Shown here: positions 6,445 to 46,678 of the stretch, in pieces
How positions within the stretch are numbered: the stretch's first letter is position 1
Layout of the letters: each line of letters opens with the position of its first letter
NCBI GenBank assembly: GCA_950295325.1
Contig: OX485807.1
Coordinates: 45,352,440-45,416,439, forward strand
DNA length: 64,000 bases
Reading direction: 5' to 3'
Source: Polytrichum commune
Lineage: Eukaryota > Streptophyta > Polytrichopsida > Polytrichales > Polytrichaceae
The notes under the pieces: generated by a model
Seen by the model: only the letters and a program-made list of their open reading frames with translations
Databases searched by the model: none
What the model was told of the DNA's origin: nothing
Program-made: the position numbers and the translations under genes

Positions 6445-6522
6445 GCGCATGTCTCACTCCTCCGAATCGCTCACCGTATCCCGAAATGAGGCATGGCAAA
6501 GTAGAGGATGCAACCTTCACTA

Positions 6523-6907: not shown

Positions 6908-6909
6908 TA

Positions 6910-8330: not shown

Positions 8331-8331
8331 A

Positions 8332-12805: not shown

Positions 12806-13603
12806 GCGTGTGATGTCATCTTACATTCCAATAATTTCATCTAGTTCTAACAACCTAGGTTGATATGGCAAAGGGTCCACTCTTCATACCTTGTTCAAAC
12901 CAATGTGAGTGTAGAAAGGGTTATCAAATAGTAAACATAAGGGGGAGTTCTTCTCTAGACTTGGGTGCAAGTAAAATCTACTATGAATTAAATGTAATCT
13001 TAGAGGTAAATTCACACAAGGGGGGCTTGAAGTTTATTTCAATTTAGATTGGCAATAGACGCATGTTGTAGGTCAAGTTATTTTATAATCACATCTTCGA
13101 ATGAATGAAAAGTCTTCAAAAACTTTCTCAGTGGAAAGTGAATGTGGATTGTTTACATAATAAAGAAGTATTATTCTCATGATTTGTATGTTGTTTATGT
13201 AGTACATGTATTTATGATATTAGAGTGGGAATCTTAGTTTATATAGTATAAGAGCCCATGATTTAGCATGATTTAGCATGTGTATACCTTTGTTCTTCGC
13301 TATGTATTTCTCATTTATATCTAAGGGGTTTTATTTTATAATCACCCATGTACATTGATTTAGAGTTCTAGTTTCCAATAAAGAGTGGACCCTCTGAAAA
13401 TTGTCTTCATTTCATTCAAGGGACACTCTAGATTTGGAGTGTAGCCACCACACAATGGAATTTAGAAGGTAGCATAAAGAAGACCATCATGAAGAAGATT
13501 GAAAGCGGGAGTTGCCAAAAGACCATGATGAGCACCAAGGAGGAGATGATGAAGGAGCAGTTGCAAGAGAGAAGAAGTTCCCTTCAAGGGAACAATGAAG
13601 GGA

Positions 13604-26083: not shown

Positions 26084-26405
26084 CAGTGTGTTAAAAAGTT
26101 AAGGATATAGGTGCAAACAACCATTATTTTATAGGGGGGTATTACTTTCAATTCTCTTCTTTTTTTCACATGCTATCATTATGTAAATTTCTACTTTGGG
26201 TTAATAGAAAAATGACTTGCATTACTTATAATTCCAAATTACTTATTATTTCATACCCTATATACTTTAAAGATGTCCAGTGCCATTTTTGATACCCTAT
26301 ATTACTCTTAAGTCCAATTATAATTTTTTGCCCCCATGTTTTTAAAATACCCTATCATTTGTTCGCACGTATATTGCTACTCCAACCAATGACTACCCCC
26401 CCGAG
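26084..26405 (+). mobile_element. G-tipped MITE, copy 1 (322 bp)
   Basis: The termini are CTCGGGGGGG and its complement. The element is flanked by a perfect 8-bp direct repeat ACATTAAC (26076-26083 and 26406-26413). The left arm has the unoccupied site (near 10670, CTCACATGAACAATCGCACAC on the complement). Internal sequence (GGGTTAATAGAAAAATG, AAAGATGTCCAGTGCC, CCAACCAATGAC) is shared with three other copies here. An 8-bp duplication suggests a hAT-type transposase in trans. Confidence 0.92.
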
Positions 26406-27213: not shown

Positions 27214-27564
27214 CTCGGGGGGGGGGGGGGGGGGGTAGTCATTGGTTGGAGTAGCAATATACGTGCGAACAAATGATAGGGTATTTTAAAAACATGGGGG
27301 CTAAAAATTATAAATGGACTTAAGAGTAATATAGGGTATCAAAAATGGCATTGGACATCTTTAAAGTACTATAGGGTATGGAATAATAGGTAATTTGGAA
27401 TTATAAATAATGCAAGCCATTTTTCTATTAACCCAAAGTAGAAATTTACATAATGATAGCATGTGGGAAAAAGAAGAGAATTGAAAGTAATACCCCCCTA
27501 TAAAATAGTGGTTGTTCGCACCTATATCCTTAATTTTTTAACACACTGCCCCCCCCCCCCCGAG
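27214..27564 (-). mobile_element. G-tipped MITE, copy 2 (351 bp, reversed)
   Basis: Same family as copy 1, opposite orientation, with perfect 8-bp target duplication CCCTTGTT (27206-27213 and 27565-27572). The left arm near 9285-9295 (complement TGACCTTTGTTGGTAAA) is the empty site. The poly-G and poly-C tips are longer here than in the other copies. Confidence 0.92.
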
Positions 27565-28064
27565 CCCTTGTTGGTAAAAAATGAGATGTACAGTAAACTA
27601 ACTAGCATTCCTTAATTCCAAATTGTAAGTGGCTATAAATATCATATTTGGTGTAGTTAGGATGCACACTAAAGAATATGATATAACTTAATTGATCAAA
27701 ACGTTAAGGATCTGTTCTTTTGCAAAATTCAAAGCTCTTACGATAGTACCTTTAAACACTATATTCGTTATTTGGAGACTTTTTGTTAATTTTGAGACTA
27801 TTTAAGGACGTGGCTTTCACATTTATAGGAATGAAAACACTAAAAATATGCTATGTTCCCAATTTTGGAAACAAATAAGAGACTCAAATGCATGGAACTA
27901 CACATTAACAATAAGAAAATGGGATATATGAAAACATTTGCATATGGAAAATCAATATCATATTTATTGAATAGGGGTTGAAGTACAAAATGCAAGTGGA
28001 ATATCCAATATTAGGCGAAAGTCCTAGAAACATAATTCCACAACTACATGTATGTTAATATAGC

Positions 28065-28427
28065 CTATACGTTCGGATCATGATTACGACTCACTACTTT
28101 TGCTTTTGCAATACTATTATTAGCATTTACGGCCGTTTCACGTTCCTTTGCTTTCATGGCCTCCATGGCTCTAAAGATCTCGGGTCCGCGGCTGTAACCT
28201 TGTTTATTTGTTGACCCCGAATATGCGCCATTTGCCCATATTTGCCGACCCCCTTCCGAATAAGTGGAATACGAATGCGTTTGGGAAACCGAACGTCTTG
28301 CACTCTTCCGTAGGGCCAAACAACGATCAGACTCGCAAGAAGCTGTCTTCAGTGTTCGCCTATCCAATGACGAAGTCGATGATGCCCGGCCCACATTCGT
28401 GTACATTGGGGTCTGAACAATGACCAT
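28065..28427 (-). CDS. Putative 3'-side exon, unknown function
   Basis: An open frame follows a convincing acceptor (ATTGTTCAG, exon start at about 28412) and ends in a stop at 28065. The predicted piece (TPMYTNVGRASSTSSL... to ...SRNHDPNV) is rich in Ser, Arg and Ala with a short charged helix (AMEAMKAKERE). It may join the open frame at 28527-28961: AAG|GTGCCC at about 28553 would keep phase 0, but that donor is weak. A decayed palindrome (28471-28486) sits between the two, as in the other introns of this element. I cannot connect either piece to the phosphatase-like exon, which ends in its own stop at 29054. Confidence 0.35.
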   Translation of the reverse strand: MVIVQTPMYTNVGRASSTSSLDRRTLKTASCESDRCLALRKSARRSVSQTHSYSTYSEGGRQIWANGAYSGSTNKQGYSRGPEIFRAMEAMKAKERETAVNANNSIAKAKVVSRNHDPNV

Positions 28428-28526
28428 AAATATATATAATGAAGTGGGTTAGTATAAGTGGTTACAAGTTACGGATGGAAGTCCGAAAAACCCAAGAAGT
28501 TGAAATGCACTAATACACGGAAATCA

Positions 28527-28961
28527 TCAAGGAAAAACTTGAGAATGCCAATAGTTGGGCACCTTCGCCTTTGGGGCGCTGGTTAGAGCTTTTGGGACAT
28601 CGACGGGTGTAGATACAAGCCCGAGAGGGACGTTCGCAAACGCCGGGACATCAATTTGGGGTTCATCCATGCAAAGGCGTCTGGTCGACCGTGGGTTACG
28701 GACGTGCTTCTCACTGCGGAGGGGAGATGGAGATGGACTTGGAGAGTAATTGAGTTTTGCAACCTTTGCAGGAGGGCTATCCACGACTCCGTCTTCAAAC
28801 CCGGAGTCTTTGGAGTAATCAACAGCAGAGGCAGCATCGACGGCCGAATATTGGAATAGTGAAGGCATTGCAACGTCGCTCATACCAAGGGAAAGGGAGC
28901 CGGTGTCTGCCTGAGATGCAGACATGCCATTGACGACACTTTTGGGTGCTTGGTGAGGCAA
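28527..28961 (-). CDS. Putative Ser/Pro-rich exon, unknown function
   Basis: The open frame starts right after a good polypyrimidine-AG acceptor (TTTTTGTGTCTTAG, exon start 28961), phase 0 if internal. It encodes a low-complexity, mostly disordered segment (KLNYSPSPSPSPLRSEKH, a basic RNPRSTRRL patch, Ala/Val/Pro-rich end). There is no domain I recognise and no convincing ATG. It could be the start of a second minus-strand gene or part of an alternative 3' end of the large gene at 29054-34555. Confidence 0.35.
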   Translation of the reverse strand: MPHQAPKSVVNGMSASQADTGSLSLGMSDVAMPSLFQYSAVDAASAVDYSKDSGFEDGVVDSPPAKVAKLNYSPSPSPSPLRSEKHVRNPRSTRRLCMDEPQIDVPAFANVPLGLVSTPVDVPKALTSAPKAKVPNYWHSQVFP

Positions 28962-29053
28962 CTAAGACACAAAAATACATTACAAAGATAAGGGGAGAAA
29001 TGTTAGATATTTACATGGAGAGTCCAAGTACAAACCCAAAATCATCAAAGTTT

Positions 29054-32000
29054 TCATATTAATTTATTGAGTCTAGCGTAGCCGTACAATCTCCTAAATT
29101 CCTCATCTTGTGGGCCTAGAGGCCTATTGCCAATTGGGTTGGAGAGCACAAAATCCGGGACACTTCCGGGGTGATAGGCAAGCCTCCTAATGTAGGGTCC
29201 TAGTTCACTCTCTAGAAAGTTGTCATTTCTATCGCTTTCCCAAGGATCCGGGAATATGCAATTGCCCGGGGGATTGAGAATACTCTTTGCCGGGCTGTCG
29301 TCAATGAGGAGTGTGTTATCCGGGGTGGGCCAACAACCGTGGGGAACCCCCTCCAACATAGGGACGCCCACCCAGAGGTTCTTCCTCAGGACCTTTAAGA
29401 ATTGAGGCCCACGACCCCCTCCGACCTTGGGTACAATATTGCCACTACGGTCATAGAGGTCATCGCAGTGTTCTTGACCGAGAAGCAAGCATGGCATTGC
29501 GAGTTCTCGGAAAAGGAAACCGACAATGGCCTTCGTGTTGTCCATGAGCATAGAGCTCCAGATGATGACATGGGCGAAGCCAAGGACCTCACGAAGGAAG
29601 CTCCTCAAACCGGGGCGGGCACGTACAACCTTCTTATTTATGAGAGTATCGAAATGTCCGCCGTAATCCATGTCTTGTGGACTACGGAAGGGCCCCTTGG
29701 ACGCACTATTCGAGATATGTTTGGATTGACAAAGCACCCCATTGAGGTCAAATATTATGAACGGTTTCATCATGGGCGCGCTTGGTTTTCCCGCGGGGTT
29801 GCGACATATCTCCGACGGACCCTGTGATGGAACATTCTATCTAGGTAAATGGTACTACTCAAGAAAACCAATTGACAAGCATGGATAAACTCAACACAAA
29901 TTATAAGGCCAAAAATAATCCGAACCATCCAGTTGAAAAATTGGTATTAATGTAATTGGTGATATACATTTGGTGAATAATATACATTGTCGCAAAAAAT
30001 ATCTGTTGAAGTTAATGGAATCTATGCTAACAAAATTGTATCCACCCGCCGGGCGAAGTCGAGGATTGAACTCGATAATATACACACGCCACGAAGGAGG
30101 CAGACAAGGAAGTTTTGGACGCGCGTCCGTAACGTGGGAGGCATGCTCAAAGGTTGATTACCTCTTCAAGGGCGAGGTCCGCGCCAGCAGTGCCTCCCTC
30201 ACCTGGCCCCGTCATGGGCACAGGATCCGGACGCGCGTCCGCAAAATTGTCCAGATCTTCGACCACCAACAAGGTGTCTCCAGCCGCTTGCGACCCTTGA
30301 GTATCCACGTAAGGCTGATCCTCATCTGTGGAGTCTTGGCTGCCCCGCATATGTACATCTTCATCGCCGATGGGGGCATTGCCTTCATTGACATCTGTCT
30401 CGGCGGCACCCGCCATGTCACGTGCCGGTATCTCCTCCACTCCTGTAGGATGAGAGGAGGGCTCCTCTGGAGTGGCGACAACAAGGGGAGAGGGCGGGAC
30501 AATCAACGCGGGGGCTGGATAAGCATGCTCGGGTATATACACCGCATGGCTACTAGACGGAGGCCGCATGAGAGTGGGGGGCATAGACATGACGGCATCG
30601 GGAGCTGTATAGACTACAGGGGGTCTTGCCTGCAAGCTCTGCATCAGGCTCATAAATTGTTGACTTTGGGCCAAGAACTGTTGATTTTGGGCCATGAGAT
30701 CGGCGTGCCTTCGAGCAGACTCCAACCTAGCTTGCTCCATCTCAGCTTGGATGGCGGCCATCTTTTTGGCGTGCTCCTCGTTAGCTTCTCGAAGCCGTTG
30801 GTCAAGCTCTTCCTTCATTCGCCTCTCCATCTTCTCGTCCAATTCGGACACTGACATCGGCTCTTTCTTCACCTTGCCAGGTTCCGTAGGCAAGGCAGAG
30901 ATGGCATTGTGAATCCTAATCTCATCCTCGTCTTCATCGGAGAGCTCCAAGACCGCGCCTTCAGGGTATTCGTTGTATGGCGTCTTGTTCCTCTTTCGTC
31001 GACTCTCACGATATAGAGAGATATCAGGCCTCAATATCAACTCCAGCACATCCCTCCCCTCCATAGGGGGTAGATCTGAATGTTGAGATCCCCCTCCAGA
31101 TGAAGCGGTGCATCCGCCTTCTGCCGCAAGGTCCACATCCTTCTCGGCCATAACTCCTGGAGCACGAGATGGACCCGCAGTTGAGGGAAATCCAACTCGA
31201 GAGGTGGGAGTCCCAAAAGGTGAGAGAACAGGGGTATGAGGGACCCTTATCGGAGTGAAGTTCACGCGTGCCTCCTGCGCATCCGTGTCGTCTGTTCCCA
31301 GCAGGAAAGCACTTGGATTAATTGGGTCGCGAACAAGGCCGTGTAAAGGCTCCTGTGTGGAGGGTTGCGCTCTTGGGGAACTGGGATCTTGGTCCTCTTC
31401 AGGGTCTGTCTCCATTCCGGGCATTGCCTCTTCTCTAGAAGAAAGAGGCACAACAGGATGGGGTGTAAGGACGTCCATGATGTCCTGGATATCCATTTTG
31501 GAGGCCATTACCCTGTGAGTATGGGCGTCATCGTAGTCGGAATCCTGCACAAAAGAATTCACCTGCAAGCCAAGCATCTGGACCATAACAAGAAAATTAG
31601 ATAAGAACAATAGTGGTGATTGCATATAAATGAGGCTAGATGTCAACACGTTATACGGACGCGCGTCCGTAAAACCACCACTCAAAAGTTGGACAATTTT
31701 ACGGACGCACGGTCGTAAAATTCACATGCACCTGATACTGGGTTTTTACGGACGCGCGTCCGTAAAATAACTATGCAAAAGATAGGTGGGTTGAAAGACA
31801 AACAAATACTCACCAGTGCTGCATACATAAACTTCGTGCCTCCGAAGACGTTGTAAACTGTCTCACTCATGACAGTTAAAGCCTTCAAGACCCCTATATA
31901 AAAGTCCATCCGGAGCTCGAACGCCGGATAGATTGCATGCATTGTCTCCTCAACAAGCTCCTTGGGATGTGGTGGCGGCAACGAATAGACTTTCCTGAAC

Positions 32001-34555
32001 ACCTCGTGTGGTTTAATGGGCAATCGCCCAGTTGGGGAAGACTTGCGTGTTAAGAAATAAAGCTGCACAGCTCCCACTTGCTTCACCCCCCTTGCCTCTT
32101 GAATGAAAGTGATCCCTTCTGTCTTCGCTGGGATGTAGGTGCTGTGGTACATATCGTATTCGAGGTCCATCGTTGATGTGTACAGATGGACAATGGATGT
32201 GGACCTCTCTTGCTCTACAATCCATAACCACACATGAGGCTCGAAGAGGGCAGGCGAGCGATAGCTCTTGAAGGCTTTTAAGAAGGGCTCGTAGAAGGGT
32301 GCTCCCGCAACGTCTTGCTTCCATGCTCCGGGAATTGCACGAAAATCAAAAATGGCGAAAGGGCAACCCCTGGGGTCATCTCTCACAGAGGCTCTTGAAG
32401 CATAGGTGTCCCATGCGCCGAACTTCATGCCCTTTGCGACCGTGCAGAATCTTGCAAACCCTCCAAATTTCGCGTTCTTTTTCCTATCGAGAAAGTGAAC
32501 ATACAACCCTGCCTCCCTCTCGTCGATGGATCCCTTCTTTTCGTTCCTTCTGGATCGTTGGGCAAGGAAGGATGATGCCCCTCTTATCAAAGCTCGCATT
32601 GAGACGCCATTGATGTGGTATTCACCCTTCAGCTTCCTCCAATTCTCCCACACGATCTCACCATCACTATTAATGAGGTTGTGGGTGGGTAGCAATTTGC
32701 TAATCTCCCTTACAGCCATGGTCTTCTTCTTTCTGTAATCGCACCATTCCTTAATGTGGTACGTGGATGGCTTCATGTGCTTCGGCCGCTTCAGAAAGAT
32801 TTTGGGATAGGGCAGAGTTCTTCTAGGAGTTTCTAGAAGAATGTGTTCTGCTGCCCTGTACAGCTCCGAGTCCATCAATCCTTGGAGGGGACGAAAGAAC
32901 TCTCGCAGGATTGGTGGTACCTTAACTTTTGAGTCGCTCTTGTAGGTGTTCTCCGTATCTGGATTGACAAGGTCGCCGTTGTTGTGGGCATCGAAAAGTC
33001 GCAACCATATTGACCACGTCTCTTCTGTTGCAGTGATGAGCTTGAGTTCGCCTTTTAATTCATGCACTGTTTTCATGCCGCTTGTCTTCATGTCTATACT
33101 CAAGAACTTTGTCAATATGGCATTGCTGAATGTCTGCAAGAGGCGCGAATTGCAAGAACTGAGAACATTGAATTCAGTACAAATTAAATTCAAATATTTG
33201 AAGCAGTGGGAGGAGAAGGGCCACATTTACGGACGCACGTCCGTAAATCTATTTGAGTAACATACCTGCCATTTTGGGTTCTTCACGACAGCATTATCTC
33301 TTTCTTTTGGGGGACATTCGTGCTCCACCCACAAGGTCCTCCCAGCCACGATGTTGGCTGCCCATGAAGCCTCGAACTGCCTCACTTTATTCCCCTGGTT
33401 CATGAAGGCAGATATTGCTATGAGTTGGTTCGAGTCCTTGGAATGCACGACGAATGCCTTCCAATATCGGATTGTCTCCTTTAATGGGCTTTTCCACTCG
33501 TCGTCTTCAAGGAGAGCTTTTGCAGCCATTACACTATGTTGGCCGTCGACAATGTAGAACTCTCCATTCTTGAGAATCGGCCAATTTTTTTCGTTGACTT
33601 CAACGATAGGATCCTTTGGTGTCACACAAATGGTTTGCCTGTCAAACTTGGGGTTGTTCATGATGTTGTTCATTTGCCACCATACACCGCTTTCTTCTTT
33701 TGCTCTGGTATTCATACTTTCGGTGCCCTTGTGGCATTTGTAGACGTCTACTTCGAAAGTAAAATACCTGCCAAGGGGCCAGCATCCCTTCGTCTTCTCA
33801 TCGAACTCTTGGAATATTTTTGTTGAGAGTTCGGCGTCAGGGCGTTGACCCTTTTTGAGGAGTGGAGCGACAGTCAGTGTAGAGCTGACATCCGGACCCT
33901 CTGTTAGTCCAGAGTCCATCTGCGAGTGAGAGCGTTTACTCGCCTGTCTGCTCCCTCTTGATGCACCACTCTGCGAGGGCCTTGAGGATTCCGGCACTGG
34001 TTTAGGCACACGCTTAGGTCGTTCAGGAACGACTTGTTTTTTCTTATCTTTCCCCTTTCTGGCCTCTAGCAAGGCTCCATTTACTCTTGTTACATTGTTC
34101 AAGAGTCGTCCAAGCCGCTTACCCGTCCAAGGTGCATTGCATGCATAGTCTTGGAACTCCGTCTGGAGATTGAAGCAAGCCGCATCTGTACTAGCATTCT
34201 CACACTCATTTTTGTTGAAGGGGTGGTAGGATTCGTGCAAAATGAAAGTGACCCGATCTTCTTTCTTCTCAAGGTCTATTACTACATAATCCCCTTGTGC
34301 CACTGCACACTCTACTGTCCACGATTTAAGCTTTATCCACTTCTCAGCTTCATCTATGTCCGTCTTCATTTGATATGCAAATCTAAGCACAAATATTTCT
34401 TTCTCGTCCTTTTCTACCAATACTGTCCAATTATCCACAATTTCATCTTGTGACTTGTAATGGTCGTTGGGACTTATGTCTTTGATGGCTTCTGGTAGCG
34501 GAGGAATGAGAGCTTCTGCGAACATCTCAATTGCATGTCTCTTTTTAGATGCCAT
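29054..34555 (-). CDS. ParB-like / methyltransferase-like / coiled-coil / FCP1-like fusion, about 1597 aa
   Basis: Coding exons (complement): 33266-34555, 31814-33133, 30162-31577, 29054-29821. Donors are GTATGT, GTGAGT and GTAATC; acceptors are CTCTTGCAG, GGTCCAG and CATCACAG. Every junction is phase 0 and every length is a multiple of three. Residues 1-430 include a ParB/DGQHR-like motif (FYIVDGQHSVMAAKAL, about 333-348; the usual Arg after the His is Ser). Around 856-894 is VYNVFGGTKFMYAAL joined across an intron to MLGLQVNSF..., resembling motif I of beta-class DNA methyltransferases; the region about 690-700 (AIFDFRAIPGAW) sits where DPPY is expected but lacks it. A basic RESRRKRNK patch (about 1060) and coiled coil (about 1115-1185) follow. 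The last exon has an FCP1/NIF-type HAD fold: FDLNGVL (about 1367), IIWSS, and LLIDDS (about 1516). The ATG at 34555 follows an AG, so the leader is spliced. The last junction is the least certain; otherwise exon 3 stops at 30147. Confidence 0.65.
30115..30132. repeat. Palindrome copy in the exon 3-4 intron
   Basis: TTGGACGCGCGTCCGTAA, between the coiled-coil exon and the phosphatase-like exon of the minus-strand gene (intron 29822-30161). Confidence 0.75.
30229..30240. repeat. Palindrome copy inside coding sequence
   Basis: GGACGCGCGTCC lies within the third coding exon of the minus-strand gene and is read in frame as part of NFADARPDPV. It is the only well-preserved copy that I place in coding sequence. 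Confidence 0.7.
31651..31770. repeat. Three palindrome copies in the exon 2-3 intron
   Basis: Copies of the ACGGACGCGCGTCCGT core have their GGACG at 31657, 31703 (variant GGACGCACGGTC) and 31750, spacing 46-47 bp. All lie in the 236-bp intron (31578-31813) that splits the methyltransferase-like motif of the minus-strand gene. Confidence 0.8.
33225..33250. repeat. Palindrome copy in the exon 1-2 intron
   Basis: ATTTACGGACGCACGTCCGT followed by AAAT, in the 132-bp intron (33134-33265) between the ParB-like exon and the next exon. One central mismatch. Confidence 0.8.
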
Positions 34556-34607
34556 CTGCAAATGATAAGATAGATAAGTTAGAATTCTTGGCAAAAGATA
34601 TAGATCA

Positions 34608-35347
34608 TACTTTACGAACGCGCGTTCGTAAAGTTTTCCAAATTGTCTCAATTATATTTTTGGATCCAAATGAAAAGATACATTTCTTCCAAATACGCAT
34701 AACGCATATATTATATACTCAAATATCTCTATAAGTTACGGACGCGCGTCCGTAAACTTCGCAAAGATAGTATGGTGGTAAATATCAATGTATTCAAGTT
34801 ACGGTTAATATTTTTTTGAGAGTCTTGTTTCACACCTACATTTTTGAGAGTCTTGTTTCTCACCTACATATATTTTTGAGAGTCTTGTTTCTCACCTACA
34901 CAAAGATCCACAAAGTTTACGGACGTGCGTCCGTAAACTTTGAGTATTATAAAGGCTATTTTAATATGCCTAATATTACAATATTTGGCTTCGTTTGCGT
35001 AATATATTGTTTGAGAGGCTTGTCTCTCACCTACCCAAAGATCCACAAAGTTTACGGACGCGCGTCCGTAAACTTTGAGTATTATAAAGGTTATTTTAAT
35101 ATGCCTAATATTACAATATTTGGCTTCGTTTGCGTAATATGCGGTTTGAGAGTCTTGTTTCTCACCTACACAAAGATCCACAAAGTTTACGGACGCGCGT
35201 CCGTAAACTTTGAGTATTATAAAGGCTATTTTAATATGCCTAATATTACAATATTTGGCTTCGTTTGCGTAATATGTTGTTTGAGAGGCTTGTCTCTCAC
35301 CTACACAAAGATCCACAAAGTTTACGGACGCGCGTCCGTAAACTTTG
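34608..35347. repeat. Left palindrome array (135-bp period) in the leader intron
   Basis: Six copies of the palindrome. The last four have GGACG at 34921, 35056, 35191 and 35326, an exact 135-bp period including the linker (GAGTATTATAAAGG, TGGCTTCGTTTGCGTAAT, CTCACCTACACAAAG). In three of these the dyad is a perfect 32 bp, with CAAAG/CTTTG arms beyond the core. Two more copies, at 34616 (GAACGCGCGTTC, still a perfect palindrome) and 34740, lie outside the periodic part. The array lies in the predicted leader intron (34556-35706) upstream of the minus-strand gene. The long open frames across it on both strands result from the symmetric repeat unit and are not genes. Confidence 0.92.
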
Positions 35348-35706
35348 AGGATTATAAAGGCTATTGTAATGTTTGCGTATTCCAATGTTTTCATTAATGC
35401 TCCGTGTTTTTCGGGACTTTACCTTGTCGTCCAATATGGTTTTGCCCTCCAAATAAGAATGCAATTTTACTTCACTGCAATAGCAAACACTGCACTGCAG
35501 ATTGACAACATAAGGCACTTTCAGAACACTGACATGTCCATAACTAAATGATTCTTAGAATGTAGCCATAGACAAAGTACTAAACAAATTCAGAATTCCT
35601 TGAAACTGGAATCTCACATTCTGTCATGCTAACCTTAAGCCCTAAACCACAACAACCCAAAATTGCAATCATACAAAATGCAATTGCAATGTTCTAAAAA
35701 ACTTAC

Positions 35707-36151
35707 CTTTCTAGAGTGTTTGCTCCTAAACCACAACTAGCTGCTCCTGCTGCAGCTAATACCAACTGCAAATGAACAATAAAATTGAGGTCAGAAACCT
35801 CTAGTAATTCAATGTGCACATGCATGATTCAACATTGAGAACTACTCAAAAAAGTTGCTCATAAATCAGATTCATGCAACACAAGTGAAAGGAAACTATT
35901 GATTTGTATGCAAAAAATATAATGAACTACATGGTGAAGCTACAACTGAAACCCTAATGAGCAACATCTGAAACACTAATTACCCTTGCAACAACTGAGA
36001 TCAACAACTGAAAACAACCTAATGAGCAGTAGCAAGCAACAATGAGCATCCTAATGATCTAATGAGCAGCAAGCAAGCAAGCAGCAAGCAAAACTTACTA
36101 ATGAGCTAATGAGCTAATAAGCAAATGAGCAGCAAACAAGGAGAACTTACT
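35707..36151 (-). other. Predicted 5'-untranslated exon(s) of the minus-strand gene
   Basis: On the minus strand a 59-bp exon (35707-35765) is bounded by TTTGCAG and GTAAGT and contains no ATG. Upstream, a donor AGA|GTAAGT ends a further exon at 36151 whose 3' part includes a short palindrome CTGACGCGCGTCAG (36158-36172, just 5' of the donor). An ATG in that upstream exon (about 36200) opens only about ten codons, so it would be a short upstream ORF. Inferred from splice signals alone. Confidence 0.45.
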
Positions 36152-36179
36152 CTAGCTCTGACGCGCGTCAGCAATTGAC

Positions 36180-36660
36180 CAATAAGAATGAGTTTTGCAT
36201 TGTGAGGAAAGAGAAGCAAGACCAGCAAGGGAAGCAAGAGAAGAGAGAGAAGAAAGTGAAGATAAGGGTAAGAAGCAAGAGAAACAAGAGAAGAAAGTGA
36301 AGAGAAGCAAAAGAAGCAAAAGAAGATGAGCAGATGAGCAAGAGAAGATGAGAAGTTGAGCAAGAGAAGATGAGCAAGAGAAGAAGAGTAGATGAGCAAG
36401 AGAAGATGAGCAAGAGCAGATGAGCAAGAGAAGATGAGCAAATGAGCAAGAGAAGCAAGAGCAGATGAGCAAGAGAAACAAGAGAAACAAGAGAAACAAG
36501 ATAAACAAGAGTTGCAAGAGAAGGAAGCAAAAGCACGAAGAGGAGGGCAAAAGGGAGCTGGTGTACTTTGAAACCCTATAACCCTAAAGCAAGAGAAGCA
36601 AGAGCAACAGTAGAAGGAACGGAAGGAAGAGATGATAGAGAAGGAAGGAAAAGCACGAAG
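36180..36660. repeat. Purine-rich GAGCAAGAGAAGA tandem repeat
   Basis: The plus strand is nearly all purine with irregular units of AGATGAGCAAGAGA and AGAAACAAG. It lies at the likely transcription start or first exon of the minus-strand gene, so the leader would be CTCTTGCTC-rich. The three overlapping minus-strand frames (Leu/Ser/Phe-rich, all about 110-130 aa) are translations of this simple sequence and are not genes. A second, shorter GAAGGAA-type block ends near 36660. Confidence 0.6.
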
Positions 36661-37332
36661 AGCGAGGGCGAAAGGGTGCTGGAGTACTTGGAACCCTAAA
36701 ACAATGGCATGCCTCCACGTGTCCCTACCCCAAACGTCGCGCCCAATCGCCGGCCTATACCCTTACGTGGCATCACCCTACTGGTCTATATTTGGTATTG
36801 AAATAGGGGTTTAATTTATACTTAGTTTGGTGATTTTATTATCATATTATGTCATAATAACATCTTATGTTTATGCTAAGGCAAGTTAAAAGTCACACTA
36901 AATGTCACTCTAAATATAAAATGAGCCATCTCGTTGCCTCTTCTCTTCACTTTTGATAATGAGTGAAATATTCATACGAGCTCTAGAAAGTATTCATTAT
37001 TTTAGGAAATTATATTAGGGTGTGAGGTTGAGTAAATTATTATGTCATTGTCAACAATTAAATGACATCAATAATAATAATAATATCATTTTGGAACTCC
37101 AAACAATGAGAGAAACTAACTACAATTTCTAGTGTGGCCTCTATGGAGAGTGGGGGAGCACCTTTCATTAAAACCTAGAATCACGTGCGTTCACTGCATA
37201 CTCTAAAAACCCCCTAATATATACAAGTGATTTTTTGTGAAATGAAGTAATACACATACAATTGCAACAATAAATATACAAGAAACAATATGTATACACA
37301 AAAAAACATCCATTCATATATATTAGTCATTA

Positions 37333-37648
37333 CTCGGGGGGGCAGTGTGTTAAAAAAATAAGGATATAGGGGGGTATTACTTTCAATTCTCTTATTTTTT
37401 TTCACATGCTATCATTATATAAATTTCTACTTTGGGTTAATAGAAAAATGGCTTGCATTACTTATAATTCCAAATTACCAATTATTCCATACCCTATACT
37501 ACTTTAAAGATGTCCAGTGCCATTTTTGATACCCTATATTACTCTTAAGTCCATTTATAATTTTTTGCCCCCATGTTTTTAAAATACCCTATCACTTGTT
37601 TGCACGTATATTGCTACTCCAACCAATGACTGCCCCCCCCCCCCCGAG
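37333..37648 (+). mobile_element. G-tipped MITE, copy 3 (316 bp), inside the giant element
   Basis: Same family as 26084-26405, with a perfect 8-bp duplication AGTCATTA (37325-37332 and 37649-37656). It shows that the MITE family was active after the giant element was in existence. Confidence 0.92.
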
Positions 37649-37659
37649 AGTCATTAACA

Positions 37660-40140
37660 TAAGTATACAAATGCAATTATTGTCTCGAAGTCTACCATGG
37701 AATGATCAATAAGATCATATGTCCACTTGTTGTTAGCCCCTTTTGATACCAACATAAACCAATCTCCACGTTTGATGGACGGTCCATCAAGTCAAATGGA
37801 TCCCTATACTCCACCCAACGATTACCAAACTTCCTCCGCATCCTATAAACTCTCCCAACAAACCAAACCTTATGAAAACTTATCCAATATGAACACTTAT
37901 GATATATAGTATAGTAACAATACCATACAAGTACAATTATTCTATACTTTTTAAAGGCCTTCCATATATGTACGTAACTATAAATTATAACATGTATACC
38001 ATATGTATATGCAATACGGCAAGGTCCAAATCAATACCCCTCCTGTGCACTCACGTATAACTCGTACATGTTTAGTACAGTGCACCCCCCGAGCTATGGA
38101 GGGGACTCTATATTTCGAGAATAGTAATAATATTCAATAAAAGGATGTCTTGTTGATTAACTTCAGTATAAGAATTCTTTTTCTTCTCAAAGGTGGGATT
38201 CAAATGCAATTGGGGCAATATACCAATTGGCCACAAATTCTCATGAAACTTTGCCAAGAAATACTTGTGAATCCCTCAATTATCGCAATAAGTTGTGAAA
38301 CGCAATTAACAAAACCGAAACATCGAGATATGGGGAGAATTCATATGCTTGTAATACCTTAAACAACATTACGGATTAATTCAATCCCTCCACACATAGG
38401 TCTAAGCTTGTATTAAAACAAAATGCATGGGTATGTGTTGAATGTACATCCCTCTTGTACATTAAACAACCTTTCGGATCCATCCAATCCTTCCACACAT
38501 AGGCCTCAGCTTGTATTATCGCTTATAAGTAGTAGCAAACTTGTTTATATTTGGAGTTTTCTTTCGGTGGTGAGTTGTGTTTAGGACTCGATTATAGAAT
38601 ACCAATATACGATCTTCAAAACCTTTCATCAAAAGTATATGTTTAAAGCAAATGGTTTAAAGCCAAAGAAAGATTTAAAAAAATGAAAGGTAAGGTTACC
38701 CCTAAATTTGCTTCACATTTGAAATGTTTATGGTTTTATTTTACAAAATTTAAAGGTAGTCATATAGTTTTGAATTACTTCCACTTAAGGCTACACATGT
38801 ATTGGGAGTTATTCAGTTAACCATGCGTACCGTATGTCGTTGTGTTTGTTCAGGGGTGGGCGGTTATAGGGTATAGGGTATAGGGTATAGGGTATAGTGT
38901 TTAGGGTATAGGGTATAGTGTTTAGGGTTTAGGGTTTAGGATTTAGGGTACCACGTATGAACTAATGAGAGTATCCCCCTTCTGTCACCAACTTAAAATT
39001 GCTTGCCTTTATAATATTTGGATACCCTACCCTCCCCTTCTCTCCATTATGGTTTGTTGGGCTCATAATGTTACTTAGAACAACAACTGCTATTGTTTGA
39101 GTCAATATTGTAGATAATGTACATGGGGTACTAAAAATTGTTTTTTGTCTCACGTATAGTACATTAAGAATGCTAGTATTATTTTTTTTGAAATAAATGT
39201 TGATGTATTGAAGGGGGCCCTAAAGTTAAGAGAGGAAATTGAGAATATTGATTTTAAAGCAACCCATAGTGCCTATGACAATAGATGTGCTATTTTCATG
39301 GCATCTAGGCGCTCAAAGTTTGTGTACGTATTAGTATAATTATGTATAGGTGTGTAAAAGTGGGTAAATTAAACGGGTTGGATGGTAGGGTGGTGGCAAA
39401 TGTAATTACTAGTTTAAATGCTAGATGAGAGGAGATAACATGATATTGGAGTGAATATCATTACATCGTATGCAAAACAATAAAATAGATGCTAGTTTAA
39501 TTTTGAATGACACGTATTTTTATACTCCATGTACTATTGTTGTTGTTGTGGTTGATGTTTCACACGACACTATAATTTTCTGTCTCCTAGTTCTACAATG
39601 ACCTCTCAATATTAGGTACTTCAATATTATAAACCACCCCTCAACAATGTTCAATGCTCATATATTATTAGCCTATTTTCTTTGTTGTCCACCATAAATA
39701 CGTAGATGCCTTTTGCTTTGTCATTATGTGGACTCATCGTCTATGCATGTTGTCCACTATGAATACACATTCCATTGTAAGGCTGGCACACGGAATGTAG
39801 TAATGTTAGGTTTTTATTTATAGGACGTAGATGGTGGCTAGTATCCTATGTTGGAAAACGGATCCAAGGGAAACGATCAGTACTTAAGGGGACACCCCTC
39901 CACCAAGGGACTCTTTTTGCATCTCAGATGTGGGTTGCGCTGCTTGGACCCTTGTAGTGTTCTGGATGTTTATTTCGTGCAGGTACAGATCCTATTGCAA
40001 TGGACCTTTTATACCCTAAACACTAAATTCCAAGCCATAAACCCATTAGTGGAGCCAATTTTATGTGGATTGCACTGTCTGGATCCTTATAGTGATTGAT
40101 TTTTGTTTATGGCAAGTATCGTTCCTGGTGAAATGGTCCT
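37660..40140. other. Central region of the giant element, no gene supported
   Basis: Between the divergent units lies A/T-rich DNA with a direct repeat of about 45 bp (about 38368-38415 and 38475-38521; CACACATAGG(T/C)CT...AGCTTGTATTA), the telomere-like block at 38860-38950, and at 39925-40100 a short duplicated phrase (TTGGACCCTTGTAGTG / TGGATCCTTATAGTG). None of the short frames has splice or homology support. Confidence 0.4.
38860..38950 (+). repeat. Degenerate plant telomere-like repeats
   Basis: A run of GGGTATA, GGGTTTA and GTGTTTA heptamers, ending in AGGGTTTAGGGTTTAGG, resembles the plant telomere unit TTTAGGG. Because it is short and interstitial within the giant element it is not a chromosome end. 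It could come from break repair or capture, or be a simple expansion. Confidence 0.7.
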
Positions 40141-40160
40141 ATTATGGCGCCGCAAATCAC

Positions 40161-41212
40161 GGAGGTTTACGGACGTGCGTCCGTAAACCTTAAACCTCTT
40201 GCTTGGTTGGATATCTATTTCTGTGAGAATTGCACTTGAGCTATTTCATGTACATTGAGGTTTACGGACGCGCGTCCGTAAACCTTAAACCTCTTGCTTG
40301 ATTGGATATGTATTTTTGTGAGAATTATACTTGAGTTATTTCATTTACATTGAGGTTTACGGACGCGCGTCCGTAAACCTTAAACCTCTTGCTTGATTGG
40401 ATATCTATTGTTGTGAGAATTATACTTCAGCTATTTCATGTACATTAAGGTTTACGGACGCGCGTCCGTAAACCTTTAACCTCTTGCTTGATTGGATATC
40501 TATTGCAGTGAGAATTATACTTGACCTATTTCATCTACATTGAGGTTTACGGACGCGCGTCCGTAAACTTTTGCACCTTTTTGTTCCATTGTTCGGTATT
40601 GCACCTGAGCTGACATCATGACCACTTGCCATGTATAGTATACCAACGAGACTGTATTGTCATGAAAATTTTCTGACTCACGTCCAGTAACCTAAACCTA
40701 TTTGTGCTAGTAATGAGGTACAGAGAGGTTTACGGACGCGCATCCGTAAACCTGCAAACCTTTGGTTCCATACTTTTCACTATGTGCCATGTAGAATATT
40801 ACATTGAGACTGTACGGTCAATGGAGGTATAAGATCCCTAAACCCTAAGCTTACATCACCCTATGTGTCATAGTATAATATTTTGACATTCATAATACAC
40901 AGTAGGAACCTGGCACCTGGACATCTTGGTTTCCTAAACCTCTGTGTGTCTTGCACAACACTGACTTTTGACATTCGGATGTTTGCGGACGCACGTCCGT
41001 ATACCTATGTTGTATAGTTTGCGAAAACATTTGCGCATGATATTGACCTCTTTGACCACGAAGAGATTTACGGGTGCGCGCCCATAAAACTGTCATGTTT
41101 TTGTTGTCTGGACCTTTCCGCCGACTATGAACAAATAAAGACATATGTATGCGCGTGCTTGCACTGATAATGTTGTTACATGGAGATATACGTACGCGCG
41201 TTCGTATACCAA
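40161..41212. repeat. Right palindrome array (95-bp period) upstream of the transposase-like gene
   Basis: Five copies have GGACG at 40171, 40266, 40361, 40456 and 40551, an exact 95-bp period with linker TTAAACCTCTTGCTTGATTG... TTTCATNTACATTGAGG. The dyad extends as AGG...CCT or AAGG...CCTT arms, different from the left array's CAAAG...CTTTG. Further diverged copies are at 40734, 40987, about 41072 (GGGTGCGCGCCC) and 41192 (GTACGCGCGTTC, with TATACG/CGTATA arms). The array ends about 140 bp before the start codon at 41350. CACTTGTAG just before that ATG could be an acceptor, so the array may lie in a leader intron, as on the left. Confidence 0.92.
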
Positions 41213-41349
41213 TGTGTCTTTGTTTCCAGGCCATGAAATCCACTATTGTTGACATTGTGTTTCATTGACAATAAGCGTTAGGACTATCCATGACATTTAT
41301 TGAATGGGATATTTTGACATACTCTTCATGTGGGTCACTTGTAGTGGCC

Positions 41350-44300
41350 ATGGATTCCAACGTCCGAGATAGTGCATTCGAGTTCTCTTCGGAAGCGTCA
41401 AGCTATGCTAGCGAATTTGAAGGTGTTATGGAACATGAAACTACAATTGGTGTCGCCAATGCAGAGGATGATTTCATACCAACATGTGAGGGTTATTCGC
41501 GGGAACAATGGATTGATCTTGATGTTGTCATAGTCAATGGATACGGCGTCCCCGTGGCCAATGGTGTTTGTAGGAACTCAAATCCTATGGACTGTATTGA
41601 TGCAAATCCCCTTGGGGAGGAAGATGTTGGGGTGTGCATTTTGAACTCCTTACATCCATTGGAAGTACCTCCTGGTTGGAGATTCTCTCTTCGTCGATGG
41701 CCGTTGCGAAGTGTTCTTCACGATGGTGTCAGCTTGTGGAATCATGCACGTCGTTTTGAGGAAATACAAAAGACTTTGTTCGCCACAATGCGTCCTAGAC
41801 AAGGTCGGCGTAAATATGATTCCGTTCGCGTGCCCCGTGAACCCACGCAACGTCGTCGAGATCTAACATTGGGAGACACATCTATTAGGTCCGTAGCAAC
41901 AAAGGATTGTTGTGCAAAAATGTGTTGCCAACTATTTCCCCGTGACAAAATCAAATCTTTGAGACAAGAGATGTGGCTTGCGGACTTTCGGATGCGATCT
42001 GCAAAGAAACTTGAAGTCCATCGCAACATGCATTTTGATGCCGAAGGTCGTAAGGTTGTGACCTTGGAAAATATAGAGGTATGCTGCACGGCATGGTACA
42101 TTATACATGCAGTTTCAAAGGCAGATTTTTATAGGTTCCGGAACTACTCGCTGCAAGGACGGCGTTCTCGGTTCCATGGCAACTCTGGTACAAAGAAGCC
42201 CAGGGAGGCAACACTCCAAGCAGCTGCAACACTATCAACCATCATTATGCCATTAGCAGATGCGATGCCACACAAAACACGGACTCTGCCGTCGGGGGAA
42301 AAGGTTGTCCAGATGGTTTTGCCTACAGGGACAAAATGGAAGAACATACTTATGGATGTTAATGAGGTTGGCGAAAAGGCTGGATGTGGGCCGATTTCGT
42401 TGTCAAAATTGAGTGTGATCAAGAATCAACAATTTGCAGAGTACATTACGAAGAGGCCTGGGGATAAGTTTGCCAGGTGTTCTGCTTGTGAAAAATACAA
42501 GGGCCTTCGAGATGCACATCCCATAGGGACTGAGTCGCACAATAGACATCAACGGAAATACATTGAGCATGTCAACAACCAAGAGGCACACCGTCAAGAC
42601 TACTACAAGAATCGCGCATTATCGATAATGAGGCCGAATGAGGTTTTGACAATCATTCATGACAAAATGGACCATGCGAAGACTGCGTGCCCTTGTTATG
42701 CACGGAAAATAAAGGCTACAGATGGATATTTCAAGCTCCCAATATCTGTCACAGGTTCGTTGGTTTTCACATTTTTTTTGCGAACCCACATACTCATCGT
42801 TAAGAGTTACGGATGTACATCCGTAAGTGTTTGTTCATTTTCTTGGCCTGCTTGCGGAAAAATTGAATTTCCTTATTATAAATGATATTGGAATGTACTT
42901 CTCATTTGTATGTCTTAATTCAGGTATGATCGCACATGGCCATGTGGACGTCAAGTATGCACATTATGGCTTGGATTTCTATCCAGGCGACGCCAATCAT
43001 ACCGTAGGGTCTTTTGCAAAACTTCTACGAGATCTTGAGAGTCCGCCAACATCATCCTCTCGCGCTCTTTTTGTTGGATGTGGAACAACACCGATTTATG
43101 AGGCTGTGCTAGAGGGGAAAGAAGTATGTCTATCGTCACTGCAAGAACCGCCTGAACAAACCGTTCTTGCTAAACCTTTGCCTCCAACTCTACATGTGCA
43201 ACTGGACAATTGTGCCAAAGACAACAAATGTCGATACGTGTTTTGTTTTTGGTCATTGCTCGTAGCCAAGGGCATTTTCAAAGAAGTGTTTGTGTCTTTT
43301 TTGATGGTTGGCCACACGCATGATGACATTGACGCTTCATTTGGACGTTGGAGTATGAAGTTGCACGAGGAGGATTTTCCGACGATTCCTCTTCTCATGA
43401 AATCATACATGGATTTGGATAATGTGCCAGTCATCCCGCATTTGATTGAAGAAGTGCCCGATTTCAAAGCGTTTATCGAACCATTCATTCTTAAGGGAGG
43501 TGACCGTTTAGTGGGCCATACCAAGGCTCAACAATTCCGATTCTATATGCGTGATGATGGTTTGCCGGCCATGCAATTCAAAGTTTTGTGCACTTCCCCG
43601 GATTGGGGTCCAGAGGAAGGGATACTCGTATGGCGCCAAAACGAAGAAGGCAAATGTATGCTACCTGATGGGGAGCCGAAGCCTTGCAAACCCAACCCCA
43701 TGAGGAATGGACCAGAAATCATCAAAGGTATATCCGGATTCATCCAATATTGGAAAGAATTGTGCGAGGAAGACATCACAAGGCGTGTTCGGGATACCCA
43801 CGAACCATTGATTACGTACTGGGATCGCATTCGCTCAGCATTGCTAGCACCCGATGTCGAAACACATTCATGTTTGACACAAGGTTTTTGGCCACAAAGC
43901 CGAGTGACAATCGTGGAATCTGAGGCCATGTTCTTCGACAATGGGGACATCCGTGAAGAGTTCGCAGCGGACGACCATTATGTTGGCCCAGCTCGTAATC
44001 GTCTGGCTCCATCATTTCGTGTGGCTGTTGATTGCTACGAAGGGTATATGATCCTCGTACGTCCTGGAGATGAGGAGCACCCTAAACCGATTTGGTTGGT
44101 AAAAGCATTGTCATCACCAAATTTTGTTCCAACTAGCCCAAATTTTCATCAAATTGAGGTGGAATATTGCCGTCCCAGCACCAAAGATCAAAATGTGCTC
44201 CGCACATATTTAGAGTGGGACACCAAAAAAGGTTTCAAATGGACAATGGACTCAGCATACGAACCAATATGGATAAACACAGATACCATACTTTGTGCTT

Positions 44301-44446
44301 GGAAACCACGCAAAGGTTCCAAATCAGAGACAATGACCATCCCCCAAAAACATATAGATTTTGCCAAAGACAACTTGGCACGTATTGCTGCTGCAGAAAA
44401 CGATGTCGAGAATGGAAATGAAGCTGAAGATGAAGATGGAGAATGA
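41350..44446 (+). CDS. DUF7869-like, putative DDE/RNase-H-fold transposase, about 975 aa
   Basis: CDS is 41350-42754 joined to 42924-44446. The junction is ACAG|GTTCGT and TTAATTCAG|GT, phase 1, rebuilding one Gly codon inside LPISVTGMIAHGH. The ATG at 41350 (GCCATGG context, MDSNVRDS) is preferred over the in-frame ATG at 41290. The N-terminal half has an acidic start, basic stretches, a CCAKMCC cluster and a CSAC pair (about 377-380) that could bind zinc. Then come IIHDKMDHAKTACPC (Asp about 438), VQLDNCAKDNK (Asp about 563) and GHTHDDIDASFGRW (Asp about 602-605), with hydrophobic strands before each. I recognise this as the DUF7869 type found in plant, oomycete and animal repeat-associated proteins. 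The three acidic clusters would suit a DDE catalytic triad; that is inference. The C-terminus is acidic. It diverges from the minus-strand gene. Confidence 0.75.
42807..42826. repeat. Perfect variant palindrome in the transposase-like gene's intron
   Basis: TTACGGATGTACATCCGTAA is an exact palindrome in the 169-bp intron (42755-42923). It differs from the consensus core at four positions, paired symmetrically, all explicable as CpG transitions. It thus mirrors the intron placement seen in the minus-strand gene. Confidence 0.85.
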
Positions 44447-44449
44447 TAT

Positions 44450-45103
44450 TGACGTAGGGTTGGACCACAATTATTTGAAATGTGTCTTGGTTTTTCATGA
44501 AATATATGACATTGGGGTCGAATACTATATTAGACACATTTTATAGCAATTTTATAGATTACAATTATATATCATGATTGTATTGATTTACGGATGTGGA
44601 ATCCAACTTCACATGCGCTATCAAATGTTTTTTATATGTTTGTGTTTACGGATGTGGAGTCCAAACTATATAATTATATTGCAGATGCTAATTTGCAATT
44701 TCTTATACACACTGTCAAATTATTTTAATATTGTTGCGTTTGGGATGTGCCGTTCAATTCACCCACAATTGGCTAAGATGTTATGTTTGGGATACGCATC
44801 CAAGAGTCCCTAGATATAAAATCAGATGGCTATTTATAGATTCATTAATTTTGTTCAATACAAAATCAAAAATACAAAATAATTGTGAATTTGTGACATT
44901 GGAATATTGTGTTGGCGTAGTTTTGATTATCCCCCAAATAATTACTATATTTAGAAACATATATATTCATCACATATGGATCTTTCGAACATTATGTTGC
45001 CATTGTTCCCCATGTTCCCTACGTTCACAATATTCGCATCCGAAACTACGGGTCCAATTTATTTTGAGACTTTCCAAAGTCTCCAATTAACGAATATAGT
45101 GTT
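44450..45103. other. 3' flank of the giant element with decayed palindromes
   Basis: There is no gene. Four degenerate palindrome-like segments (TTTACGGATGTGGAATCC at about 44588, TTTACGGATGTGGAGTCC at 44644, GTTTGGGATGTGCCGTTC at about 44738, GTTTGGGATACGCATCC at about 44787) precede the terminus. GAGACTTTCCAAAGTCTC (45066-45083) is a near-terminal 18-bp palindrome next to the right TIR. Confidence 0.55.
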
Positions 45104-46678
45104 TTTATTGCTTTGGGACTAATTCGATTGTTTCAAGAATAACCAAACATTTCGGAAATTGTATTTTTGAAATCTAAAAAAAAATTATAGAGAAAAATGA
45201 GTTTTCCTTTAAACACGGGATTGACAAATTTAAAAATACATAATACGAATTCCCCTATAAATAGCCAAAGTGGTAAAGGTACTACAATACATTCTTAAAA
45301 TCACTTTCACTGAAACATGTGCAATGATTAAGAGTTGTCCACTTTACCATGCTTGCACCCAACACGTAACTCCAAATGACAACCCACACTAATTAGGAAA
45401 AATAGTGCGGGGGACGTTAAGTACCCCCCCACGAACTAATAGGGATTCCATATTCGGGCGGGGGCAGCCCTCCCACGAAATTTCTGCCCCCGCCCGGATT
45501 TTTTCCAAACCCGCCCGAAATAGCTGCCCGCCCCGCCCGAAAACGAAAAAAACATTGCTCTTCCATTCTTGAAGGCCGCTTGACTACAAATCCCATATTG
45601 AGTGCACTTCACCTTCAAGGTTTTAAATCCAATATATAATATGTGCACTTCCACCTAGTAAATAAGGCATTAAATGGGATTTCATTCCGGAAGTGAAACC
45701 ATCAACCAAGAATGTAATTAACTTGGAAGTCAAAAAATTAGAAAATCCTCATCAACATTGAGGTTATAATTTTTATGACTTACCATTTGAAATTGTCTTC
45801 GTCATTTTTAAATGACACTTAAATTTAGTGTGCTGATGTGGTATGTATATTTTATAATATTTTAGATAATTCTGGCTACTTTCAAGAATATTCATACGCA
45901 CTTATTCTAATTAAGTGTGATTTAATGTAATTATGTCTAATTAATCCTGATTAATCCTAATTAATCCCAAATAAATCAGAAAGTATTCTTTCCAAATTAA
46001 GTAAGACTAATTAATCCTAAAACTTAATTACTGGAATTAACTCCAATTAAGTCCAATCAATTTCAGTAATTACAATACTCAATTTTTATATCCAGTAAGC
46101 CTAATTAACCCTAAAATTTAATTAATGGAATTATCTCCAATTAAATCCGGTAATTAAAATAATTGATTAATTAGTTCCATTAAGTATATTTTATAAATAA
46201 GTGCGTATGAATATTCTTGAAAGTAGCCAGAATTATCTAAAATATTATAAAATATACATACCACATCAGCACACTAAATTTAAGTGTCATTTAAGAATGA
46301 CGAAGACAATTTCAAATGGTAAGTCATAAAAATTATAACCTCAATGTTGATGAGGATTTTCTAATTTTTTGACTTCCAAGTTAATTACATTCTTGGTTGA
46401 TGGTTTCACTTACAGAATGAAATCCCATTTAATGCCTTATTTACTAGGTGGAAGTGCACATATATATTGGATTTGAGACCTTGAAGGTGAAGTGCACTCA
46501 ATATGGGATTTGTAGTCAAGTGGCCTTCAAGAATGGAAGAGCAATGTTTTTTTCGTTTTCGGGCGGGGCGGGCAGCTATTTTCGGGCGGGTTTGGAAAAA
46601 ATCCGGGCGGGGGCAGAAATTTCGTGGGAGGGCTGCCCCCGCCTGAATATGGAATCCCTATTAGTTCGTGGGGGCGTA

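Follow-up and report, generated by a model that had tools for sequence, protein, structure and literature searches.

The locus examined here raises the question of what kind of mobile element has entered the genome of Polytrichum commune, and why this element is filled with short palindromes. The window, i.e. the whole stretch of 64,000 nucleotides that was analysed, contains an element of 17,349 bp (27755-45103). An earlier note, made from the letters of the window, had described it as a two-gene mobile element that could not be placed in any known transposon superfamily, and had mentioned its palindromes as a side remark. We found that it is a DNA transposon of the cut-and-paste type, giant in size and active in recent times, which carries an accessory gene and is best filed as Sola-like on account of its features and not of any Sola sequence. 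The palindromes are the real novelty: each of the three lineages compared carries its own form, placed mostly outside exons. The explanation that we favour, with modest confidence, is a Sola-like giant made of two opposing units, in which the accessory gene (gene 1) and the palindrome would form a private pair serving self-recognition, in the manner of the VANC proteins of VANDAL transposons.

The borders given in the earlier note were recovered exactly. The left terminal inverted repeat, AACACTATATTCGTTATTTGGAGACTTT (27755-27782, plus strand), begins with the letters AACACTATATTCGTTA and pairs in the tip alignment with the right repeat, AACACTATATTCGTTAATTGGAGACTTT as given on the minus strand (45076-45103), over 28 bp with one mismatch. 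A TTTA stands directly before the left tip (27751-27754; the flank reads ..ACCTTTA up to 27754) and another directly after the right tip (45104-45107). A large and diverged inverted duplication (1-12862 versus 25397-54068, in pieces, about 75-94% identity) provides an empty site within the window, as the element is present in one arm only. The two flanks joined with one TTTA gave a gapless 144-bp alignment with the complementary strand at about 9000-9199, with TGTA as the target (9102-9105, minus strand); in blastn, the flank pieces matched as 9101-9293 with 27755-27565 and 9099-8802 with 45110-45403. Neither a deletion scar nor a remnant of the element is visible at the empty site of the inverted arm in this flank alignment. 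The insertion is therefore demonstrated inside the window, as had been claimed.

The family was then followed through the genome (408 Mb, 64 contigs). The 16-bp tip occurs in exact form 1,273 times (635 + 638), while the same pattern read backwards, used as a control, gave no match. From 683 candidate left ends 40 were scored, and 29 of these, among them that of the window, show no difference over 145 bp. The 80 copies of gene 2 exon 2 that were scored, from 1,861 candidates, all have a protein identity of 90% or more, and 62 of them are free of internal stops. Flanks were fetched for 10 of the about 27 copies whose two ends could be paired by eye. In each of these ten the tips are immediately bordered by an exact 4-bp duplication particular to that copy, and the flanking letters differ between copies right up to the tips. 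The same holds for the duplication at 16 of 17 neighbouring plus/minus tip pairs on contig C1, one copy being common to both sets; the ends of the remaining pair lie 45 kb apart and perhaps form no true pair, a blemish on an otherwise clean pattern. The letters of the duplication vary, with a weak preference for A at position -4 and T at position -1, which rules out TTTA-specific or TTAA-type insertion. What had been called a TTTA-type duplication thus keeps its length of 4 bp, and TTTA at the window copy, and loses its fixed sequence. Among 26 neighbouring tip pairs on C1, the spacing is 14.4-18.1 kb in 16, less than 12 kb in two and more than 21 kb in eight, these last being nested or mispaired. 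Two short derivatives of 3.6 and 4.8 kb bear the same tips and arose by internal deletion. These data describe a large young cut-and-paste family, with no swarm of exact-tip miniature derivatives in this sample.

Eight full elements were compared. The window's element and E77 (C2:21464500-21482500) belong to lineage A1; E502, E145, E1645, E170 and E167, all on C1 and with the same 16-bp tip as the window, belong to lineage A2; and B25 (C2:68579968 onwards, 25 kb), whose tip differs (ATGGGGATATTAAC), belongs to lineage B, in which 4-bp duplications were found at 19 of 22 neighbouring pairs and are missing from three. The plan is common to all eight: a long noncoding middle lies between gene 1, on the left, and gene 2, on the right, and both genes point outwards; the accessory gene lies opposite the transposase strand in the window and in the seven other elements. 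Compared by segment with the window, the A2 elements are 63-66% identical in gene 2 and 27-42% in gene 1, and in B25 gene 2 is 44/33% identical and gene 1 is recognisable by its GQH motif and its phosphatase-like domain. Both genes are under constraint, since dN/dS was 0.10-0.16 between the window and E77 in the four exons tested and 0.05-0.19 between E502 and E170 in three of four exons, the ParB-like exon being saturated at synonymous sites (dN 0.083). The near-identical pair E1645-E170 gave a less tidy range of 0.06-0.79, from very few changes. Beside a B-lineage element on contig C5 (45500000-45518500; L041 and L025), long plus-strand frames read by eye as endonuclease and reverse transcriptase-like are probably a non-LTR retrotransposon.

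The palindromes have the same design in every lineage, two half-sites of 10 bp around a centre of 2 bp, with one form for each: TTACGGACG-NN-CGTCCGTAA in A1, TTTGGGTCG-NN-CGACCCAAA in A2 and CCACGGGTG-NN-CACCCGTGG in B. The inner core of the half-sites is alike by eye (ACGGACG, TGGGTCG, ACGGGTG), as though the specificity of a single protein family had shifted. Searched as a 22-mer with up to 3 mismatches, the A1 form has 17 sites in the window, all within the element, and none in 100 shuffles. An 18-position motif, also with up to 3 mismatches, was used across lineages and gave 239 sites in total: 21 in the window's element, 27 in E77, 33, 22, 35, 44 and 36 in the A2 elements and 21 in B25. 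None of the eight elements contains a site of another lineage's motif, and when three elements were shuffled (first-order, 20 times each) no site appeared. Genome-wide, the A1 palindrome was found 1,310 times and the A2 palindrome 9,731 times, the controls giving none. Fifty listed A1 sites fall into six clusters: five, with 47 sites together, coincide with or closely adjoin a gene 1 match, and a deleted copy holds the remaining one, of 3 sites. The two internally deleted copies described above have tips and no palindromes.

The placement of the sites is also similar between lineages. In the window, six sites lie 5' of gene 1 (34612-35341), four of them in a 135-bp tandem array, and seven lie 5' of gene 2 (40167-41002), five of them in a 95-bp tandem array. 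Further palindromes occupy intron 1 (33227-33246), intron 2 (three sites, 31653-31765) and intron 3 (30113-30132) of gene 1 and the intron of gene 2 (42807-42826). With the modelled exons, one of the 21 sites is exonic; a palindrome lies within exon 3 of gene 1 (30225-30244). A cluster is found at most 1.6 kb 5' of gene 2 in all eight elements, and at most 1.6 kb 5' of gene 1 in seven. Every drawn gene 1 intron of A1 and A2 has at least one site, as have three of the four gaps in B. The gene 2 intron holds a site in the window and in B25, and probably, judged by position, in E77; in the B lineage this intron sits at a different position, yet it contains a B-type palindrome. The gene 2 introns of the A2 elements are without a palindrome, which spoils the regularity. 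As a lower bound, five of the 239 sites fall in exon intervals as drawn, which make up 30-45% of element length (in the A2 elements and E77 these are matched segments, in B they were drawn by hand).

Gene 1 is read from the minus strand as one in-phase frame of four exons with GT-AG borders (34555-33266, 33133-31814, 31544-30162 and 29821-29054). It encodes 1586-1597 aa depending on the acceptor of exon 3, which may be 31544, 31562 or 31577. The fusion of ParB, methyltransferase and phosphatase domains seen in the earlier note fared differently from part to part. The phosphatase part stood as a family match: exon 4 (29054-29821) encodes an NIF/FCP1-SCP-type HAD phosphatase-like domain (Pfam NIF 4.4e-13; UBLCP1 at E=0.001 with a three-sequence profile). 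The ParB part came down to a local motif in exon 1 (33266-34555), F[YWH][ILV][VI][DN]GQH, which reads FYIVDGQHS in the window and matches a PHROG ParB-like entry at E=0.024; Pfam and NCBIfam gave no ParB match for gene 1. Exon 2 (31814-33133), in which the domain ends in NVFGGTK, is methyltransferase-like by eye only, and its methyltransferase identity was dropped for the window's copy after profile-profile comparison. No significant ParB or methyltransferase match was obtained for the window's exons in Pfam, NCBIfam, PHROGs or PDB sequences, and no phage record matched exons 1 and 2. In a search for prokaryotic or viral relatives, the A1 alignment was confirmed at none of 99 pattern matches in genome contigs and at one of 154 in viral contigs, over 24 residues only. 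Exon 3 (30162-31544) is a low-complexity linker. The genome has 123 matches to the C5 cytosine methylase family. Several of them lie at separate loci in open frames of 1,366 or 1,386 aa, a pattern suggestive of a repeated element with a cytosine methyltransferase gene.

Two further coding segments are conserved on the minus strand beyond exon 4. Segment E (28527-28961) is 78% identical in E77 and 41-51% in the five A2 elements; segment F (28065-28448), which may be a further 3' exon of gene 1 or else belong to a small gene of its own, is 74% identical in E77, where it has one stop, and 40-42% in the five A2 elements. A degenerate palindrome separates them (28469-28488; oriented position 769). 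Because of these segments, the two genes announced for the element are present and are a minimum.

Gene 2 is read from the plus strand in two exons, 41350-42754 and 42924-44446, and encodes 975 aa. Exon 1 contributes the N-terminal half of the transposase with the first candidate catalytic D (IIHDKMDH), according to the gene model and the alignment. Exon 2 contains the DUF7869 domain with the motifs QLDNCAKDNK and GHTHDDID, an assignment upheld by Pfam at 4.5e-40, and at 3.8e-42 (PF25273) with the spliced protein. At E<=5, Pfam matches DUF7869 only, and neither a CACTA-type transposase nor a MULE domain; exon 2 had no match in viral contigs, and the term DUF7869 was not found in the open-licence PMC literature searched. 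The D-D-D/E candidates (IIxDxMD, QxDN..NK and GHTH[DE]D[IV]D) align across the window, E502, B25 and five distant genes, except that L028 has QASN at the second site and L027 has GHIH. The distant DUF7869 genes (L026, L027, L028, L030 and L031) lack the intron that interrupts the domain in the window, some have stops, and they constitute a separate group. From the D-D-D/E motifs we infer that gene 2 would be the transposase which acts on the AACACTATATTCGTTA tips and makes the 4-bp duplications.

The noncoding middle of the element contains a purine-rich tandem repeat of AAGAGAAGC-like units (36209-36762). A repeat of 280-330 bp, about 95-97% identical between copies and perhaps a nested miniature element, occurs once in the element (37365-37645) and three times outside it (27223-27556, 26074-26405 and 62584-62918).

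The A2 palindrome is not restricted to this family. Among the first 100 A2 sites listed are four clusters, with 19 sites altogether, that lack an exact tip in their vicinity. Three of these clusters were examined, the fourth being located at C1:462876. Two belong to a SWIM/MULE-like family (L060+L057+L059, C1:2142000-2170800; L058, C1:436500-440000), the SWIM assignment having a Pfam E of 0.076, below the cut-off. The third (L056, C1:472500-480500) is without a nameable gene; it has nine A2-type palindromes in two clusters, no frame of at least 180 aa and no tblastn similarity to gene 1 or gene 2. In the SWIM/MULE-like copy read at length, a gap in the transposase-like gene contains six palindromes, and another twelve precede an opposing gene. 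This opposing gene has a GNHR motif at the place of GQH, with a profile probability of 8% only, and a methyltransferase region matching phage methylases at 95.8% over 78 columns (PHROG 4e-4); Pfam gives no match for it. The palindrome may thus be travelling with a ParB-like/methyltransferase-type accessory gene across superfamilies, or the SWIM/MULE-like element borrows the A2 protein, or both elements use a common third factor.

Since A1 and A2 have identical tips yet different palindromes, the palindrome follows the accessory gene and not end recognition, and a role as the transposase's end motif is disfavoured. Gene 1 is favoured as the binder because the tips are the same, the palindromes differ and gene 1 is the most divergent part of the element. 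The accessory protein of about 1,590 aa would combine a ParB-like motif domain, a degenerate methyltransferase-like region and an FCP1/SCP-type phosphatase-like domain. A dimer of it would bind the element's own palindrome, one 10-bp half-site on each side of the 2-bp spacer, before the genes and in their introns. The bound protein would keep the element transcribed despite host silencing, as VANC does for VANDAL, and every lineage would have its private protein/palindrome pair. Judging from sequence, it is probable that the gene 1 protein binds the palindromes; that the outcome would be anti-silencing or self-activation, rather than repression or control of transposition, is a more tentative proposal, for which the chances appear a little below even.

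Several observations weigh against this explanation. The ParB-like likeness of exon 1 to phage ParB_N-like proteins (hhalign 94%, E 1.4e-7) extends over 26 columns, and the A1+A2 profile of exon 2 gave a non-significant 0.2% against five phage DNA methylases. The catalytic DxD of the phosphatase reads DxN (DLNG in the window and A2, DVNG in B). No sequence-specific DNA-binding domain was recognised in gene 1, the other Pfam signals in exons 1-2 are below cut-offs (YEATS, E 0.02-0.04; CDC37_M, 0.12), and AlphaFold models of two single window segments were uninformative, with mean pLDDT of 31.9 and 37.0. As to the palindromes, E145 has no cluster 5' of gene 1, and as an upper bound 33 of the 239 sites lie in whole open frames that hold exons (31-58% of length); two sites each in the exon-3 frames of E502, E145, E1645 and E170 may well be coding. 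The independent motif forms are three, from one genome, and five of the eight elements are from one close lineage (A2). In the pairs window/E77 and E502/E170, pS is 0.64-0.76 in gene 1 exons 1-2 versus 0.23-0.35 in gene 2. The elements are therefore mosaic and the lineage labels hold per segment, either the middle of the element or else its ends having been exchanged between lineages. Finally, the A2 palindrome is common to an unrelated element whose accessory protein is dissimilar (no tblastn similarity between the opposing gene and gene 1 at 1e-3), which a host-factor model explains too.

According to such a model, host transcription factors, not the same ones in A1, A2 and B, bind the palindromes, which the transposons gather for the sake of expression, and gene 1 does something else. 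We regard this as unlikely: three related half-sites with the same 10+2+10 design and a core shared by eye, varying with lineage, point to one protein family; elements of the family itself contain or adjoin the 50 listed A1 sites; and in both element types that bear palindromes the accessory gene has, as judged by eye, a GQH or a GNHR motif. Clusters 5' of gene 2 in eight of eight elements and 5' of gene 1 in seven of eight nevertheless agree with host factors, introns can contain enhancer sites, and the A2 palindrome of the SWIM/MULE-like element fits as well. The sites might also be internal binding sites of the gene 2 transposase, used in transposition or in titrating the transposase. CACTA-type elements do have repeated transposase-binding motifs, and the scarcity of short derivatives (2 of 26 tip pairs below 12 kb) looks as if internal sequence were required. 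The palindromes, however, keep away from the tips and occupy introns and mid-element arrays, they differ between A1 and A2, whose tips are identical and whose transposases are 63-66% identical, and the A2 form recurs in a SWIM/MULE-like element with another transposase; this makes such a role improbable.

Two further readings dispense with a DNA-binding protein of the element. If the palindromes acted as RNA, i.e. as transcript hairpins, small-RNA or splicing signals, their abundance in introns and 5' regions would be expected, as perfect inverted repeats fold as RNA. However, the arm sequence itself is fixed per lineage, beyond mere self-complementarity, a centre of 2 nt is too short for a loop unless the arms open, and arrays are also intergenic, so that this reading has little likelihood. 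Least probable of all is a neutral amplification of functionless satellites by chance. It is suggested by the tandem arrays of 135 and 95 bp, but other sites are single, in different introns of both genes, and three lineages hold different palindromes at similar places. Moreover, the CpG observed/expected ratio is 1.6 in the window's arrays, where the motif itself is CpG-rich, versus 0.42 in the central noncoding DNA and 0.54 in the window outside the element. The two low values are as expected under cytosine methylation, and TpG/CpA is 1.18 in the central noncoding DNA of the element.

The filing of the element was evaluated against known superfamilies. It shares with CACTA/EnSpm elements the CACTA in its tip, a large size and internal repeats. 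It is not a CACTA element because AA precedes CACTA (AACACTA tip) and the duplication is 4 bp, that of CACTA elements being 3 bp; no CACTA transposase was found in Pfam. The likeness is thus confined to the tip, as the earlier note had observed, the coding content being of the DUF7869 type. Sola1 and Sola3 give 4-bp duplications, the length found here in all ten fetched copies, in 16 of 17 tip pairs and in 19 of 22 pairs of the B lineage. The same length is described for Sola2 (PMC3627910), and the Sola2-Fanzor elements also resemble ours in their short inverted repeats and in having an accessory protein. They differ by an AWWT target preference, where ours has a weak A..T tendency only, and by Fanzor as the accessory (PMC3627910). 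The closest published description is that of Sola1-1_Ec32 of Ectocarpus, a Sola1 transposon of 21.5 kb with a ParB-like/DNA methyltransferase gene opposite the transposase (PMC12477816), so that calling our element unplaceable in any known superfamily was too strong. Similar accessory proteins occur in transposons of green and red algae according to the same paper, which cites Iyer 2011 and Petroll 2025. Its authors propose, in their account of these proteins, that they may bind and modify their own transposon, with no DNA target named there, and the word stem "palindrom" has no occurrence in the main text. The Polytrichum element resembles the published Ectocarpus one in its giant size and in an accessory gene which, encoded on the other strand than the transposase, has candidate ParB-like and methyltransferase(-like) domains; it differs by its extra phosphatase-like domain, by a methyltransferase-like region without profile support and by lineage-private palindromic arrays.

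VANDAL elements of Arabidopsis, whose transposase is of the MULE type, provide the functional comparison. The noncoding parts of VANDAL21 contain YAGTATTAY motifs to which VANC21 binds; such motifs are arranged in tandem and vary from family to family (PMC5735166, PMC10398659). A transposon-encoded accessory protein and short motifs that amass in noncoding parts, often in tandem, and vary between families are common to both systems. Our motifs are likewise noncoding and lineage-specific (5 to 33 of 239 possibly coding). The components differ, being a VANC protein and non-palindromic motifs of 8-9 bases in VANDAL, and DUF7869, a ParB-like/phosphatase-like protein and 22-bp palindromes here. A second comparison is with VirB, a bacterial protein of the ParB family, which engages a parS-like palindrome, spreads and relieves silencing (PMC10653881). 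A ParB-family protein with a palindromic site is the point of likeness; the VirB system is bacterial and CTP-dependent, and the resemblance here is in the GQH motif only. A bolder extension, which we consider doubtful, is that the gene 1 protein would be a ParB-type loader, which loads at parS-like private palindromes and, spreading along the 17-25 kb of the element, maintains it in an open state by the action of its phosphatase-like domain on RNA polymerase II or chromatin. Loader and palindrome would then be a portable cassette evolving private specificity, acquired by at least two unrelated superfamilies in one genome.

Private palindromes accompanying ParB-like transposon genes were not found in the open-licence PMC literature searched. 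Relative to that literature, and as far as searched, the private palindromes, the phosphatase-like domain and the palindrome common to an unrelated transposon are new. Candidate targets of ParB-like accessory proteins can be read here directly from the sequence, three palindrome forms matching three gene forms. As near-identical recent copies are also at hand, binding, specificity and anti-silencing are directly testable. If the explanation that we favour is true, the Polytrichum family would be a second independent case of VANC-like self-recognition, and its three gene/palindrome forms are candidate orthogonal protein/DNA pairs.

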